Of a stretch of 58,465 nucleotides of DNA, positions 17,197 through 52,322 are shown piece after piece. Numbering within the stretch: the stretch's first letter is position 1; each line of letters opens with the position of its first letter. The position numbers and the translations under genes are program-made. The notes below the pieces were generated by a model. That model did no database searches. It was not told the DNA's origin and saw nothing but the letters and a program-made list of their open reading frames with translations. Source of the DNA: Candidatus Bathyarchaeota archaeon RBG_16_48_13 (GTDB lineage: Archaea; Thermoproteota; Bathyarchaeia; RBG-16-48-13); contig MEZH01000007.1 of NCBI GenBank assembly GCA_001775995.1, positions 264,806-323,270 of the forward strand. The letters run 5' to 3'.

Positions 17197-17976
17197 ATGA
17201 AAACACATATGAAGGACATTGAGGTTCACGCCACCGCAATCATTTCAAAGAGAACAAAGATTGAGGAAGGATGCAGAGTGGGTCCACATTGCAGGACGGA
17301 GGGAAAGGTTGAACTTCTGAATAACGTAACCATGGATTCGAATGTAATCATTAGAGGCCCCGCCAGAATAGGCAAGGGCAGCTACATCGGCCCAAACTCG
17401 ATAATAGGGTTTCCCCCAGAGAAGTCTCTGAAGAAGATGATCCACGGAGGCGCCCCCGAAGAGGAGATAGCGCAGGTCATCATCGGAGAGAACGTCCTGC
17501 TTCGATCCAACGACGTAATCTATTCGGGAGTCAAGATAGGCAATAATGTACGCTTCGGCCACAACGTGATGATTCGAGAGAATGTACAAGTCGGTGAGGA
17601 CTCTCTAGTAGGAACCGACACAATAGTCGATGGAGGGGTTGCGATAGGACGGAGAGTATCCATTCAAACGGGAGTCTACATATGCACGAATTCGGTCGTA
17701 GAGGACTCCGTCTTCCTAGGACCTAGATGTGTCTTCACCAACGACAAATACCCGATGCAGAAACGGACAGATCTCAAAGGACCAACCATAAAAAGGGATG
17801 CCAGCATAGGAGCGAACGCGACCATTCTTCCCGGCGTGATCATAGGAGAGGGAGCGGTGGTCGGCTCAGGCTCCGTCGTCACTTCCAGTGTAAAGCAGAG
17901 AATCGTGGTAGCAGGAGTTCCAGCCAAGAAGTTAAAAGATGTACCGCCAGACTGGCACAGCCTACTCAGAGAATAG
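17197..17976 (+). CDS. Left-handed beta-helix (hexapeptide repeat) acyltransferase
   Basis: Repeated [I/V]GxxxxIGxN-type hexapeptides, IGANATILPGVIIGEGAVVGSGSVV. Confidence 0.85.
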   Translation: MKTHMKDIEVHATAIISKRTKIEEGCRVGPHCRTEGKVELLNNVTMDSNVIIRGPARIGKGSYIGPNSIIGFPPEKSLKKMIHGGAPEEEIAQVIIGENVLLRSNDVIYSGVKIGNNVRFGHNVMIRENVQVGEDSLVGTDTIVDGGVAIGRRVSIQTGVYICTNSVVEDSVFLGPRCVFTNDKYPMQKRTDLKGPTIKRDASIGANATILPGVIIGEGAVVGSGSVVTSSVKQRIVVAGVPAKKLKDVPPDWHSLLRE

Positions 17977-18051
17977 AGTACTCATCAAAAGGTTTTATTG
18001 TAAGCTATATGATTAACGTATCTTCAAAATAGTCGTTAAGGGGAATCTCAA

Positions 18052-19794
18052 CTGAAGACAAACGTAGCTTTGTCGATTGTTCTTCTAATCATCATAACTG
18101 CCATTTTATCCGCTACCCAGGTAGCGTATGCTACTCCCGCATCATCGCCATTCTTGACGGTCGATAGGACCCTAGATATAAGCAAAGGTGGAGTGATTAC
18201 TGTTAAGGACATTTACCATCTGCGGAATAATGACACCGATCCGATCTCGGAATTTACTATCTACTTAGAGAAGGACCTGTTGACCAGAATGGATCTAATG
18301 AGCGCTTCAAGCGGCAACCAACCTCTGAGCACAAACATTACACCTGACGCAACTGGCAACTACAGCCTGATCCATGTGACCTTCTCTCACGCCGTTGACC
18401 CGGGCACGGACTACGTCTTTAATATGACCTACGTTTATTCCCTCCTAGTAAGGGGGATCAGCTCTGGAACATATGGCGCATACATGTACATTTACCCGAG
18501 GCTTCCTTTTGCAGCGGTCAACTGCAGCGTAACTATAGTTATGCCTGAAACCACGACGTTGACAACTCTTGATAATGCTAGCTACTCTCTAGATAATGTC
18601 AGCTTCACCCCTATTACGTATAGTCCCAGGTGGGTATACAACAAAATAATAGCTCCTTTGGTACCTCTATCCAACACGACGCAGGCAATATTCTTCAAAG
18701 CCAACGTTATGCAAATGTTCTATGTGGGAAGTATCGACCGGTCCATTGCATTGGACCAGTTCGGAAGAATCTTTGTCTCCGATTCTTACAACATGATGTA
18801 TCTCGACTACACTTCGACATCAACCATTGACTTGAATCTGCTAGAGGGAAGGACAAACGTAAATGCCTCGGATTCGCTCGGCAATCTTAAGGTTGTGAGC
18901 GTGTTCGGCAACGCTACTGTCAACTACGCAACTGTGTCATTCAGGTATTATCTACAGACGTATGAGAATGTCTCCTTCACGGTGAACTACCAAATTCCAG
19001 CCAACAAGTATTTGAGCAAAGTCGGAACCTCGGACAGGTACAGGCTAAATATCACTCTCTATCCGAGTCTGAACTGGACCATCAGGGATGCGGCAGTGAA
19101 GATTAGCTTGCCCGAAGGCGGAGACTACGTGGCTTCGGCCGTCCATCCTCAGACGATCCAGAAAACTTACTTGCAGACAGTCGTGGAGTACCTTCTCCCG
19201 ATCGGTGCGGCAATGAACAACAGCGCCACGATACTGGATTATGATTATGCTATCTTGTGGTCGGCTTTCAGACCCACTCTGTGGGCTGGGCTAACGATCG
19301 CCGCCTTAGGCGGAGTTGTGCTCATAGCGAGAAGAAGAAAGAACGAGAACCCCGTGGAAGCAGAGGCACTGCCACTGGACGACCTCAAGGAATTCGTGGA
19401 CCTCTATGACGAGAAGAATGCCTTGCTGGACGAACTAGAAGAGGCCGAGGAGGAAGAGAAGAGAGGGGTCCTGAGGAAGGAGGACCGGAAGAGGATGAAG
19501 ATTGTCGAGGCTCAACTGGGGACATTGAGCAAGAAGATAGGGGAGCTTAAGCCAGAGATCAGATCAGCATCGACTCAACACGCTAACGCGTTAAAGCGGA
19601 TGGAAGTTGCAGAAGCTGACATGGCTGCGGCAAAAGACAGCTTGAAAAAAGTGGACGCCCAAATCCGAGCTGGACAGATCTCCAGAGAAGCGTACGAAAA
19701 ACTTAAACGAACTTATCAAAAGAGGATAGGAAGCGCGAAGGGCGTCGTAGACTCGGCGATCATCACCTTCAAGGAAGAAGTCGAAGCATTCTAG
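18052..19794 (+). CDS. Ribophorin I-like type I membrane protein (ectodomain, one TM, cytoplasmic coiled coil)
   Basis: In-frame CTG start at 18052 or TTG at 18070; signal peptide ([26 protein letters not shown]), N-glycosylation sequons, TM near [21 protein letters not shown], then about 170 aa charged coiled coil. Motif blocks resemble eukaryotic RPN1 (see findings). Confidence 0.65.
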   Translation: [580 protein letters not shown]

Positions 19795-19940
19795 AAGTAG
19801 TGCGCGCACTAAGACTCTTTCTGTTTTGTCGATGCCTTCCAACGTTGCAGGCTGAACGATGATGCTTTGCACTGGAACTTCGCCATCTGGAAAGATTTCT
19901 CCCCAACCTTTTGCCCTCAGCGTTCAAACGTCCCCATGTC

Positions 19941-20186
19941 TTATACTTTCTCAAAGACTAAACCTCCCAAGCTCTGCCTCTTCAGCGCAGCCTTCCGAGT
20001 AGGACAAGAAGCGTAAACGCCAACATCAGAAAAGCCGAAACACTTCAAACCATCAGATTTGCACTTGCGACCTAAAGCGCCCTCATACATAGACTCTCCA
20101 ACGATCTCGCAGGAACCATCAGGCGCTAAATTAGAATCCACATTCTCAGGATACTTGTAATTCTCTAGCAACCTTGAATCCATCAC
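19941..20186 (-). CDS. Small Cys-containing hypothetical protein
   Basis: 81 aa ORF, GTG start or ATG at the next codon, overlapping the end of the upstream decayed ORF. Confidence 0.4.
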   Translation of the reverse strand: MMDSRLLENYKYPENVDSNLAPDGSCEIVGESMYEGALGRKCKSDGLKCFGFSDVGVYASCPTRKAALKRQSLGGLVFEKV

Positions 20187-20396
20187 GAAGCCTCCTCACT
20201 CGGGATGTCTATGACCTTTCTTGCAACCGCAGTCTCGGGTAAAGCAATTAGCTGCTGGATTTCGTTCATCCTTGGAATAATCACGTCCTTCAACGTCTTC
20301 TGGCCATCCTTGGAAGCAATATACAGCAGAAACTCAGCGGTCTTGGAACTCTAGCAAATAGGCAGCTTCAAGGTACGATTTAGCCAATAAGTACAT
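20183..20396 (-). pseudogene. Frameshifted small helical hypothetical gene
   Basis: MYLLAKSYLEAAYLLEFQ in one frame, then TAEFLLYIASKDGQKTLKDVIIPRMNEIQQLIALPETAVARKVIDIPSEEAS-stop in the adjacent frame. Confidence 0.4.
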
Positions 20397-20521
20397 AACT
20401 CACATACTAATGTCCCAGTTTACACTTTCAGCCTTAGACCGAGTTTCGTGGTCCCAGTTAGAAGGGAAATGACGCGCCCCCTGTTCGCCGTCTTGAAAAG
20501 TATAAATCACGCTCTAGAGGG

Positions 20522-20641
20522 TGGTAGCCCGGGAGAGACTCGAACTCTCGTCTCCGTCTCCCCTTGCTGGGGGACTACGGCTCCAAAGGCCGCTATGCTT
20601 GGCCACTACAATCGGCGGAGCTCTAACTCCTCCACCGGGCT
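20522..20641 (-). tRNA. tRNA-Gln (TTG), with two putative introns (D-arm 21 nt, variable region 23 nt), CCA encoded
   Basis: AGCCCGG/CCGGGCT acceptor, GAGAG-TTCGAGT-CTCTC T-arm, GCGGC-CTTTGGA-GCCGT anticodon arm, ACCA end. Removing 20631-20611 and 20576-20554 gives a 76-nt cloverleaf. Confidence 0.85.
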
Positions 20642-20785
20642 GGATTCCGGGCTGAAAAATCTTCAGTGAACAGCCTTAATAAGTTTTCAACTGAATTTGA
20701 TGACTAGTATCTTCAAGCGGAAATCTTGTATAGTATTCAACAAGTAAGATCCATGTCGAAGTCGCGTGCTTCTGAACATTGGAAT

Positions 20786-21061
20786 CTATGTCTTCGCGCT
20801 CAAGTTGAAGGGTTTTCCTTCTTTCAGGATCTTTTCTGGGAACTTGCCTTTCCACTTCTTCATGAACTGAAGGTCTTCCATTGCCCTGAGTTCGTCAGGA
20901 AGCATGTGGGGTACCTCATCAATTATTGGGTACCATCTTTGGCATACCGGGCAAATTATCACACCTTCTGCGATCGCTTCTTTTTCCTCAAATGCGATCA
21001 GTTCAAGCGGGTGATGTTTGCATATTGGGCACGCCAATAAGTCCATTAGCCATCGCTTCAT
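20786..21061 (-). CDS. Trm112-like zinc-ribbon protein
   Basis: MKRWLMDLLACPICKHHPLELIA...GVIICPVCQRWYPIIDEVPHMLPDELR. Confidence 0.8.
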   Translation of the reverse strand: MKRWLMDLLACPICKHHPLELIAFEEKEAIAEGVIICPVCQRWYPIIDEVPHMLPDELRAMEDLQFMKKWKGKFPEKILKEGKPFNLSAKT

Positions 21062-21115: not shown

Positions 21116-22060
21116 TTATCCGACAGTTACTATCTGGTTTTTCTCTCCAGATGCCAGGGCCGCCTCAGCTATTTCAAGGGCTTTTATTCCGTCCAAAGCT
21201 GTGACCGCGGGTTCCTGATCAATCCGCAAGGACTCCACAAAGTGCTCGAGCTCAGCCGTTAGAGGTTCCTCCCACTTGAGTTTTGGCTGAACAATTTCTT
21301 CCAAACCCTCTACAGTCAACTGTTGGGTTATGTAGTCGATGGTGACTATCTTCTCGCTGCCCGTAACGATGAGCGTCCTCACCTTATGGGGTGTTAGCCA
21401 GTTGGCTTCCACGAAGCCGGTCTTCTTGCTCTTGAAGCCAAGAAGTATCTCGGCGTAGTCCTCGAGTTTGTGTCTGTAGCTGCCTACTCTCGCGTACACT
21501 GTGCTGGGGGTCTCACCCAAGACAAACCTTATCACGTCAAGGTCGTGGATAGCGGTATCCTTTACTACGCCTATGTCGCCTATCCTTTCCGGCCACCTGC
21601 CAACCCTTTTGGCAACTATGAGCACGACCTCGCCTGTGGTCCCTTCGTGGACCATGTTTCTCAGCTTCTGGACGGCGGGGTTGAAGCGCTCTATGAACCC
21701 TACCATGACGTGCAAGCCCTTCTTCTGGGCAGCCTTGAGGATAGCCTTACCCTCATCAGAAGTCTTGCTGATGGGTTTCTCGATTAGGAGGTGCTTTCCG
21801 CACTCGATGGCCTCAAGAGCATGTTCCGTGTGGAATATGGTGGGGGTGCAAATGCTCACGGCGTCTATGTCATCTCTTTCAAGGAGTCGCTGGTTTGAGG
21901 TGTACCAATCGACACCGTACTTTTCGGCTATGGCCTTTGCTGTGGCTTCGTTGGTGTCGCTGATTGCCTTCAACTCCGCCCCCTTTAGCTCCTTGTAGAC
22001 TCTGACATGGTTCTTGCCCCAGAAGCCGGTGCCTATGACTCCGATCCCAAGTTTTTTCAT
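21116..22060 (-). CDS. Gfo/Idh/MocA-family sugar oxidoreductase
   Basis: LGIGVIGTGFWGKNHVRVYKELKGAELKAISD... LLIEKPISKT. Confidence 0.88.
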   Translation of the reverse strand: MKKLGIGVIGTGFWGKNHVRVYKELKGAELKAISDTNEATAKAIAEKYGVDWYTSNQRLLERDDIDAVSICTPTIFHTEHALEAIECGKHLLIEKPISKTSDEGKAILKAAQKKGLHVMVGFIERFNPAVQKLRNMVHEGTTGEVVLIVAKRVGRWPERIGDIGVVKDTAIHDLDVIRFVLGETPSTVYARVGSYRHKLEDYAEILLGFKSKKTGFVEANWLTPHKVRTLIVTGSEKIVTIDYITQQLTVEGLEEIVQPKLKWEEPLTAELEHFVESLRIDQEPAVTALDGIKALEIAEAALASGEKNQIVTVG

Positions 22061-23415
22061 TTAGTCCACGTGCCCCTTCCAATTCCTCTGTAGATGAAGC
22101 CCTCCTTCTCCACCGTGTTTGGGTCAAACACGTGGCCGCAGTCGACTATGGCGGCTGGTCTCCTCATCATGAAGGCTATCTTTGAGGGTGCAAGGGTTTT
22201 GAATTCGTCGTGCCCGACAGTGATTAGGATGCAGTCCGCGTTCTCAACCGCCCTTTCAATACTTGAGAAGCCGTTGTATCCGAGGGCCTTCAGCTCCTCG
22301 ACAGTGAACCGCGGGTCGTATACCCTCATAGAGACGCCCTTCCTTTGAAGGGCGTTGTTAACGGTCTTTGCCATAGAGAGGCGGGTTTCCTTCACGTTTG
22401 CTCTAAAGGATACTCCCAGAAGGGCCACATTGCTTCTTCGGAGTTTCTTCCCGCAAGCCCTGAGGGCTTCCGACACGAGTCTGATGGAGTGGGTATACAT
22501 GTTGTCATTTATCTTTCGGGCGAGATGCACCATCCGGAGGTCGACACCTTGCTCCTCTGCCTTCTCCAAGAGGAAATACGGGTTAACAGGTATGCAATGG
22601 CCCCCTACGCCGATGCTTGGTGAATGGAGGTGTGAGTACGGTTGAGTGTTGGCCGCTTGCATCGCCTCATCGAAGTCTACTCCGAGCCTCTCACACAAGA
22701 TGGCGAGCTCGTTCACCAGGGCGATGTTGACGTCCCTGTAGATGTTCTCGAAGAGCTTTATTGATTCGGCAGTTCGGAGGTTCTTCACCTTGATGATCTT
22801 TTCCTTCACGATCGAGCCTATGAGTGCCGAGGCCGTCTCCAGGCTCCTTTGATCGAAGCCTCCCACTATCCGTGGATAGCTTTGGATATCTTTGATCACC
22901 CGTCCGGCTGTAGCCCTGATGGGGCTATAGGCTAGGCTGAAGTCACTCCCAGCGTTCATGCCTGAGGATAGTTCCAGCAACTCGCGCACGAATCCCTCAG
23001 TTGAGCCAGGTCCTATAGTGCTCTCAAGTACTACTAAGGAATCCACCTGGAGGCCCTTCCCTATCTCCCGACAAGCCCTCTCAACGGCAGAATAATCAGG
23101 CTTTCGGTTCTCGTCTATCGCTGTGGGAACGATGATTATTATTGTCTCGTTGTCAGTGGCAGCTTGTTTTATGTTGCTCGTCGCCTTCAGGCGTCCGCTC
23201 TCTACGTTCCTTCTTATCATTGCGTCCACAGTAGGCTCAGGTATAGGGCTCTTCGCATCGTTTATGACCTTAACTACCTTTAGGTCTATGTCGACACCGG
23301 TGACCTTGAACCCTGTCTCCGCGAATAGGCATGCCGTCGGTAGGCCCATCCATCCCAAGCCAATTACGGCGATCCGCATGCTCTTGTCGTTGATCTTCTC
23401 CTGGAGGGCTGCCAA
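22057..23415 (-). CDS. Nucleotide-sugar dehydrogenase (UDP-ManNAc/UDP-glucose dehydrogenase family)
   Basis: MRIAVIGLGWMGLPTACLFAETGFKVTGVDID...GVGGHCIPVNPYFL. Confidence 0.9.
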   Translation of the reverse strand: MAALQEKINDKSMRIAVIGLGWMGLPTACLFAETGFKVTGVDIDLKVVKVINDAKSPIPEPTVDAMIRRNVESGRLKATSNIKQAATDNETIIIIVPTAIDENRKPDYSAVERACREIGKGLQVDSLVVLESTIGPGSTEGFVRELLELSSGMNAGSDFSLAYSPIRATAGRVIKDIQSYPRIVGGFDQRSLETASALIGSIVKEKIIKVKNLRTAESIKLFENIYRDVNIALVNELAILCERLGVDFDEAMQAANTQPYSHLHSPSIGVGGHCIPVNPYFLLEKAEEQGVDLRMVHLARKINDNMYTHSIRLVSEALRACGKKLRRSNVALLGVSFRANVKETRLSMAKTVNNALQRKGVSMRVYDPRFTVEELKALGYNGFSSIERAVENADCILITVGHDEFKTLAPSKIAFMMRRPAAIVDCGHVFDPNTVEKEGFIYRGIGRGTWTK

Positions 23416-23459: not shown

Positions 23460-24539
23460 CTAGGATATAAGTTCGCGCTCAACTTGGCCGGCTATCACGT
23501 CGACTGGGTTCTCCATGTTAGACAGCAGGTTGTTCGCCCGCTCTTTGGAGGCCCGCTTGTATATCTCAAAGTTGTCCAATATGTCAGCCATCTTTAAGAA
23601 GGCCTTGTTTGGGTCCAGTATCCTGTTGATCAACTTCTCTTTCAAGAGAAATTGCTCCACGAATGTTGGCTCTACAGGGTAGCAGGATATCGTAGGTACA
23701 CCGAGCAGCGCAGCCTCGGCGGTCATGGTTCCACCGGCGCCGACGAAGAGGGAACTAAAAAAAAGTAAGCTGGTGCTGTCTATCACCTTGTCCGTCACTG
23801 TCACTTCAGTGTGGAAAGCTGACTTCAGCATGGGGATCTGTTCACTGTAGCGAGGCATGACCACTATCTGGATCTCCTTCTTATACCTCTCCAGCAGGTT
23901 TCTTATGAGGGGGATCACAACGGACTCGCCTTGGGTGACCCTGTCGACGAGGTAGGACGCAAAGGCCTCTTCGACCCTGAATACCACTATGGGCTTGGAC
24001 CCGTCGAGGCTGAGTTGGTATAGGACCGCCGGAGAGGAGGGATAATTCTTGATCCAAGCCGCGGGATCAAGGGCGTTGTACTGAGTGATCAGGTCCGAGC
24101 TTGCACCGAGAGTCAACCAAGCCTTGAGCGGGACAACCTTGGGAGAGAACAATCGTTTGGACAACGGGATGGTCAGTCGAGCCACCGACACTGAGTGGGG
24201 GGAGTCGTTCACAGTGTAGTGTGGTATGGCCAGACCGAAGGCTGTTCGTGCAGCTTCCGGGGAGGCAAAGGCTATTGACAGCTCAGGCTGGAGCTTGGTC
24301 ACGAGGTTGGCAAGCTCAGCGATTCTATTTGCGCTGGCGATTAGTTTGCCCTTGAGGGTTGGCCCCCCGTGCTTGCCGACGACCGCACATTCGAGGCCCT
24401 TCATCTCAACAAGTTCATTGACCTCTTTGTAGTTCCTAGTCGTGTAGAATACTTCGTTCCCCTTAACGCGTAGCTTCTTGCCAAGTTCCACCATGAATAG
24501 GAATTGTTTTGGGGTAAGTATGTCGAGCCAGACCCTCAG
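23460..24539 (-). CDS. DUF354 glycosyltransferase-like protein, probable CTG start
   Basis: Frame extends 15 codons upstream of the ORF-track start: (M)RVWLDILTPKQFLFMVELGKKL, a typical DUF354 N-terminus, with GGAGGT 6 nt before CTG. Confidence 0.75.
   Translation of the reverse strand: MRVWLDILTPKQFLFMVELGKKLRVKGNEVFYTTRNYKEVNELVEMKGLECAVVGKHGGPTLKGKLIASANRIAELANLVTKLQPELSIAFASPEAARTAFGLAIPHYTVNDSPHSVSVARLTIPLSKRLFSPKVVPLKAWLTLGASSDLITQYNALDPAAWIKNYPSSPAVLYQLSLDGSKPIVVFRVEEAFASYLVDRVTQGESVVIPLIRNLLERYKKEIQIVVMPRYSEQIPMLKSAFHTEVTVTDKVIDSTSLLFFSSLFVGAGGTMTAEAALLGVPTISCYPVEPTFVEQFLLKEKLINRILDPNKAFLKMADILDNFEIYKRASKERANNLLSNMENPVDVIAGQVERELIS

Positions 24540-50820: not shown

Positions 50821-52322
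<1,502 letters not shown>

Follow-up and report, generated by a model that had tools for sequence, protein, structure and literature searches.

A full-length ribophorin I (OST1) homologue in Bathyarchaeia and a candidate DC2/OSTC-like companion

Ribophorin I (OST1) is commonly regarded as a feature of eukaryotes or Asgard archaea. OST1 is well documented in Asgard archaea (PMC10307638, PMC8813620), a 2022 paper called ribophorin I mammal-only (PMC8993221), and the presence of OST1 and OST3/6 in TACK archaea was stated in one sentence in 2024 (PMC11417166). The OST1 tails of the Asgard archaeon Ca. Prometheoarchaeum syntrophicum MK-D1 and of human bind ribosomes; MK-D1 also has TRAP subunits, which the same paper limits to Asgard archaea and eukaryotes (PMC11417166). 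In human, an ordered RPN1 four-helix bundle and DC2 distinguish the cotranslational OST-A from OST-B (PMC8058564, PMC7226087).

Here we analysed a 58,465-nucleotide stretch of DNA (the window) from Candidatus Bathyarchaeota archaeon RBG_16_48_13, in which a ribophorin I gene had been proposed from sequence inspection. Named relatives place the host in Bathyarchaeia, a TACK lineage, a case that the original prediction had considered. That prediction gave eukaryotes and Asgard archaea as the holders of the family, which is correct but incomplete, as TACK archaea were already on record (PMC11417166). The novelty added by the host OST1 itself is modest.

The OST1 gene and its predicted architecture

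The gene lies at 18052..19794 on the forward strand. Inspection of the reading frame found no interruption between CTG 18052 and the stop codon at 19792-19794, with TTG 18070 in frame, giving a protein of 580 or 574 amino acids. The CTG start, used in the original prediction, adds a positively charged lysine to the n-region and is preceded, about 8 nt upstream, by GGGGA (18040..18044, forward strand), a candidate ribosome-binding site read from the sequence; TTG 18070 has neither. CTG 18052 is thus a plausible candidate and may be the true start. Residue numbers below refer to the 574-amino acid form beginning at TTG 18070.

Pfam, profile and fold searches all assigned the gene to the OST1 family. 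The protein matched Pfam Ribophorin_I (PF04597) at 54.8 bits (E 1.1e-14; curated cut-off 25 bits), with the best stretch at residues 245-371. A six-frame search with PF04597 recovered the same two segments at 36.8 and 21.4 bits and gave no match in 14 control genomes. An NCBIfam search with the protein returned nothing above the NCBIfam cut-offs. Used as a single phmmer query, the protein found the crystal structure of the Lokiarchaeal OST1 tail (8WHN) at E 4.8e-9, in an alignment of 136 residues. We then compared profiles with the PDB. The first three matches of a profile built from ten class sequences (A1) were human RPN1 (1.9e-25), 8WHN (9.3e-19) and yeast OST1 (1.8e-14), and a second profile, from thirty sequences of named loci, returned these three in unchanged order. 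The match of the ten-sequence profile to human RPN1 spanned residues 8-254 and 275-603, a collinear run of ectodomain, transmembrane helix and tail. Blocks of RPN1 that the original prediction had lined up kept, as far as they could be checked, the same register when the profile was aligned with human RPN1 ([42 protein letters not shown]...[20 protein letters not shown]). A profile of the relatives built with the host protein left out recovered it at 3.2e-123, and 0 of 500 shuffled sequences scored at E<=10. The gene encodes a full-length archaeal ribophorin I/OST1 homologue.

We utilized AlphaFold2 with a 30-row alignment to predict the structure of the protein (pLDDT 84, pTM 0.61). The model begins with a helix at residues 2-15, within a predicted signal peptide with a hydrophobic N-terminus (residues 1-22; 18070..18135), and strands follow from residue 28 to 392. 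The first beta-rich half of the ectodomain (residues 28-211; 18151..18702), with pLDDT mostly about 90 and below 55 around residues 169-185, corresponds to the second PF04597 segment (profile positions 5-104) and aligns with human RPN1 8-254. The second half (residues 217-392; 18718..19245) holds the best PF04597 stretch, aligns, together with the tail, with RPN1 275-603, and is the part best conserved with RPN1. Residues 23-401 contain 14 N-x-S/T sequons, about 5 being expected from composition, which bears out the description of the ectodomain as rich in sequons. The single transmembrane helix (residues 402-424; 19273..19341) is preceded by an AFRPTLW motif that is kept in many Bathyarchaeial OST1 proteins. 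Four helices (436-464, 470-500, 502-533 and 539-573) make up the predicted cytoplasmic tail (residues 436-573; 19375..19788). All of these features are on the forward strand. The signal peptide and the one transmembrane helix predict a type I topology, as in the relatives. The signal peptide, beta-rich ectodomain and single transmembrane helix of the original layout were retained, whereas the simple coiled-coil tail gave way to a predicted four-helix bundle.

A Foldseek search of the PDB with this model returned RPN1/OST1 chains as its best eight matches (4.3e-28 to 4.7e-18), followed by an unrelated protein at 2.4e-6. The whole-chain TM-score was only about 0.50, with high rmsd, for RPN1 chains that include the tail; against tail-less chains it was 0.58-0.62 by target length, at 6.6-8.1 A. 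We attribute the low whole-chain score to the relative placement of the parts, which is not fixed in the model (pTM 0.61). Assignment of the predicted fold to RPN1/OST1 is safe, but the mutual arrangement of its parts is not. In both the Ribophorin_I profile and the fold comparison, the full-length ribophorin I architecture proposed at the outset was borne out.

Companion subunits and a proposed role

We searched the host genome for STT3/AglB and OST3/6. An AglB gene (G000:C7:225342-227474) was found on the same contig, about 55 kb from OST1; its product carries WWDYG and an NGTINST double sequon, the latter resembling those described in STT3 of TACK archaea, Asgard archaea and eukaryotes. The host match to the OST3/6 profile PF04756 (G000:C1:9851-10102, L033) was rejected, being a soluble plain thioredoxin without transmembrane helices, and OST3/OST6 proper, with a thioredoxin domain and four transmembrane helices in one protein, was not found in this genome, which is 75% complete. 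PF04756 scores a plain thioredoxin above its cut-off, so annotating archaeal OST3/6 from this profile alone is unsafe.

Across the class, PF04756 also matched a second kind of sequence, ORFs of about 145 amino acids that cover the membrane part only. By hydropathy these mostly have three transmembrane helices, and none has a thioredoxin domain. All 18 aligned members matched PF04756, and a profile of the family scored human OSTC/DC2 at 4.4e-13 compared with 0.014 for MAGT1 (OST3). The family was present, normally in single copy, in 186 of the 201 class genomes and in 113 of 114 near-complete ones. The host member, a protein of 146 amino acids, is encoded outside the window at G000:C7:249322-249759 (L183:1823-2260, forward strand), adjoining a CDP-archaeol synthase gene; it belongs to the family at 1.3e-41 and on its own falls below the Pfam threshold. 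Among other Thermoproteota, 47 genomes had both OST1 and the DC2-like protein, 23 OST1 only, 56 the DC2-like protein only and 197 neither (Fisher p 6e-12, uncorrected for kinship).

In eukaryotes, OST5/TMEM258 sits between OST1 and STT3. Pfam searches of 61 Bathyarchaeia gave nothing above noise for OST5, with equal noise in bacteria, and noise or nothing for DAD1 and OST48, searches that had no positive control and so do not prove absence. In the literature searched, which covered few subscription journals, we found no description of an archaeal DC2/OSTC-like subunit or of its combination with AglB and a tailed OST1; the case for novelty from this negative is weak.

We propose that OST1 would act as a non-catalytic subunit in the cytoplasmic membrane, next to AglB (the archaeal STT3). 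The part outside the cell, with its two beta-rich halves, and the transmembrane helix would support AglB and offer up nascent chains. Docking on the ribosome would fall to the cytoplasmic four-helix tail, allowing AglB to glycosylate proteins emerging from SecY. We consider it likeliest that OST1 partners AglB and links it to translating ribosomes, because the genome encodes predicted counterparts of the OST-A features, the RPN1 bundle and DC2, and because the MK-D1 and human tails bind ribosomes; we put this reading as a whole at roughly 85%, with the complex and the docking as its inferred parts. Some observations run against it. The OST1 gene stands apart from AglB, and the genes conserved next to it in relatives are of mixed kinds. 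OST5, which in eukaryotes connects OST1 with STT3 by its position, gave only noise in the searches of Bathyarchaeia. The net charge of the host tail, -2, is also a family outlier: the median in Bathyarchaeia is +9.5, and the printed part of MK-D1 has +10. This makes ribosome docking less likely for this particular OST1, and its lineage may dock more weakly or have lost the ability.

The protein could instead be a ribophorin-fold membrane protein that has acquired another function, such as anchoring at the cell surface or acting as a chaperone, and takes no part in N-glycosylation. Some Bathyarchaeial OST1 proteins lack the first ectodomain half or have it replaced, which implies that the eukaryotic architecture is partly dispensable. 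The host protein, however, keeps the tail, the transmembrane region and both ectodomain halves, all matching RPN1; OST1 co-occurs with the DC2-like protein, and the host genome encodes AglB. We regard repurposing as unlikely.

Returning to the partnership with AglB, we note that the set made up of AglB, an OST1 with its tail and a DC2-like subunit resembles the cotranslational OST-A. A wider proposal, which we advance tentatively and would not bet on at even odds, is that Bathyarchaeia, and probably the TACK ancestor, had a minimal OST-A-like OST of these three components, coupled to ribosome and translocon and without detectable OST48 or DAD1. If true, cotranslational N-glycosylation would be older than Asgard archaea and the ER.

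Within the window, OST1 is flanked by genes for a hexapeptide acyltransferase (17197-17976), a Gfo/Idh/MocA oxidoreductase (21116-22060), a UDP-sugar dehydrogenase (22057-23415) and a DUF354 protein (23460-24494), which, judging by family names, possibly form a nucleotide-sugar (glycan precursor) cluster. No conserved ORF was recognised in the roughly 1 kb 3' of OST1 (19795-20785), and the next convincing gene is Trm112p-like (20786-21061, reverse strand). An archaeal 16S rRNA gene also lies inside the window (50821-52320, forward strand). In one Bathyarchaeial group (L040, L041, L043, L051-L055 and others), OST1 follows a kept string of GT4 glycosyltransferase, nucleotidyltransferase and DUF2095 genes. 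This neighbourhood is no proof of a glycosylation operon, as histone deacetylase, asparagine synthase and adenylosuccinate lyase genes are also kept nearby, and the string is absent from the window.

Distribution and descent in Thermoproteota

We analysed the occurrence of OST1 at three scales. Genome contigs searched with a narrower alignment yielded 29 relatives' loci, almost all from Candidatus Bathyarchaeota; the OST1 protein of one of them (L038, Bathyarchaeota archaeon DVMM_8) is the same as that of L015, whose genome belongs to the same order as the host. The Pfam PF04597 profile matched 73 of the 201 class genomes. In a phylum-wide sample, an archaeal OST1 profile matched 66 of 75 Bathyarchaeia and 136 of 323 other Thermoproteota at E<=1e-3, 70 of the latter at 1e-11 or better.

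Two variant forms were seen among the homologues. Proteins of about 415-430 amino acids in family f30 (L120, L121) end after the transmembrane helix in a short, proline-rich basic tail, a loss that parallels yeast OST1. Others (L004, L005, L007, L008 and L011, of about 410-465 amino acids, and L020, L024, L032 and L037) either miss the first ectodomain half or have unrelated sequence at the N-terminus in its place.

We generated a tree of 74 rows that included human and yeast and left out Asgard sequences. The Bathyarchaeial rows, the host protein among them, formed a cluster that also took in two long-branched neighbours. Human and yeast formed their own branch outside this cluster, at a place among Thermoproteota with 6% support. 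Recent acquisition of OST1 from a eukaryote or an Asgard archaeon would fit a family best known from those two groups, and an Asgard-free tree leaves room for deep transfer. Set against this are the presence of OST1 in most Bathyarchaeia and in many other Thermoproteota families, the place of the host protein within the Bathyarchaeial cluster, and the 28% identity of its closest row, which points to nothing recent; we judge a recent transfer very improbable. OST1 instead looks inherited, by old and mostly vertical descent within Bathyarchaeia. Given the 6% support and the Asgard-free tree, we make no claim on the origin of eukaryotic OST1.

Helical tails attract coiled-coil families, and the weak phylum matches f36 and f44 look like such cases (we set both aside as tail or coiled-coil matches, f44 from one locus and f36 by E-value only), but a chance or coiled-coil-driven match to ribophorin is refuted for the host protein by the PF04597 match in the beta-rich ectodomain, outside the tail, by the RPN1 profile and by top Foldseek matches to RPN1/OST1 only.

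The original prediction saw in this gene a bearing on the pre-eukaryotic origin of multi-subunit OST. A single gene adds little to that question, because TACK archaea have many such homologues and the position of eukaryotes in the tree is unsupported. What pushes the question of the origin of a multi-subunit, ribosome-coupled OST back beyond Asgard archaea is the tailed OST1 of most Bathyarchaeia taken with the near-universal DC2/OSTC-like protein. With OST1 and a second helper of the coupled OST encoded in one genome, such an early origin becomes testable.

Comparison with described OST systems

Compared with eukaryotic OST, the Bathyarchaeial set differs in that OST48, DAD1 and OST5 were undetected, with the OST48 and DAD1 searches lacking a positive control. 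The three-helix companion resembles human OSTC/DC2 (6S7O chain H) in its length of about 146 amino acids, its three transmembrane helices and its lack of a thioredoxin domain; unlike OSTC/DC2, it falls under Pfam OST3_OST6 (PF04756), and its contact with AglB or SecY is putative.

Yeast OST1 (6C26, 6EZN) shares the ectodomain and transmembrane helix with the host protein and is without the four-helix tail. The Asgard OST1 of MK-D1 (8WHN; PMC11417166) aligns with the host over 136 residues of tail, and the same role has been proposed for it; its tail is basic and ribosome-binding, whereas that of the host carries a net charge of -2. Human RPN1 (PF04597; PDB 6S7O/8B6L) has the same parts, namely a signal peptide, two beta-rich halves, one transmembrane helix and a cytoplasmic four-helix bundle, at only about 15% identity in structural alignment, and resides in the ER membrane whereas archaeal OST1 would reside in the plasma membrane. 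The four-helix tail of the metazoan and Asgard type is thus present in the host OST1, as predicted by AlphaFold2 (residues 436-573) and matched by 8WHN (4.8e-9).
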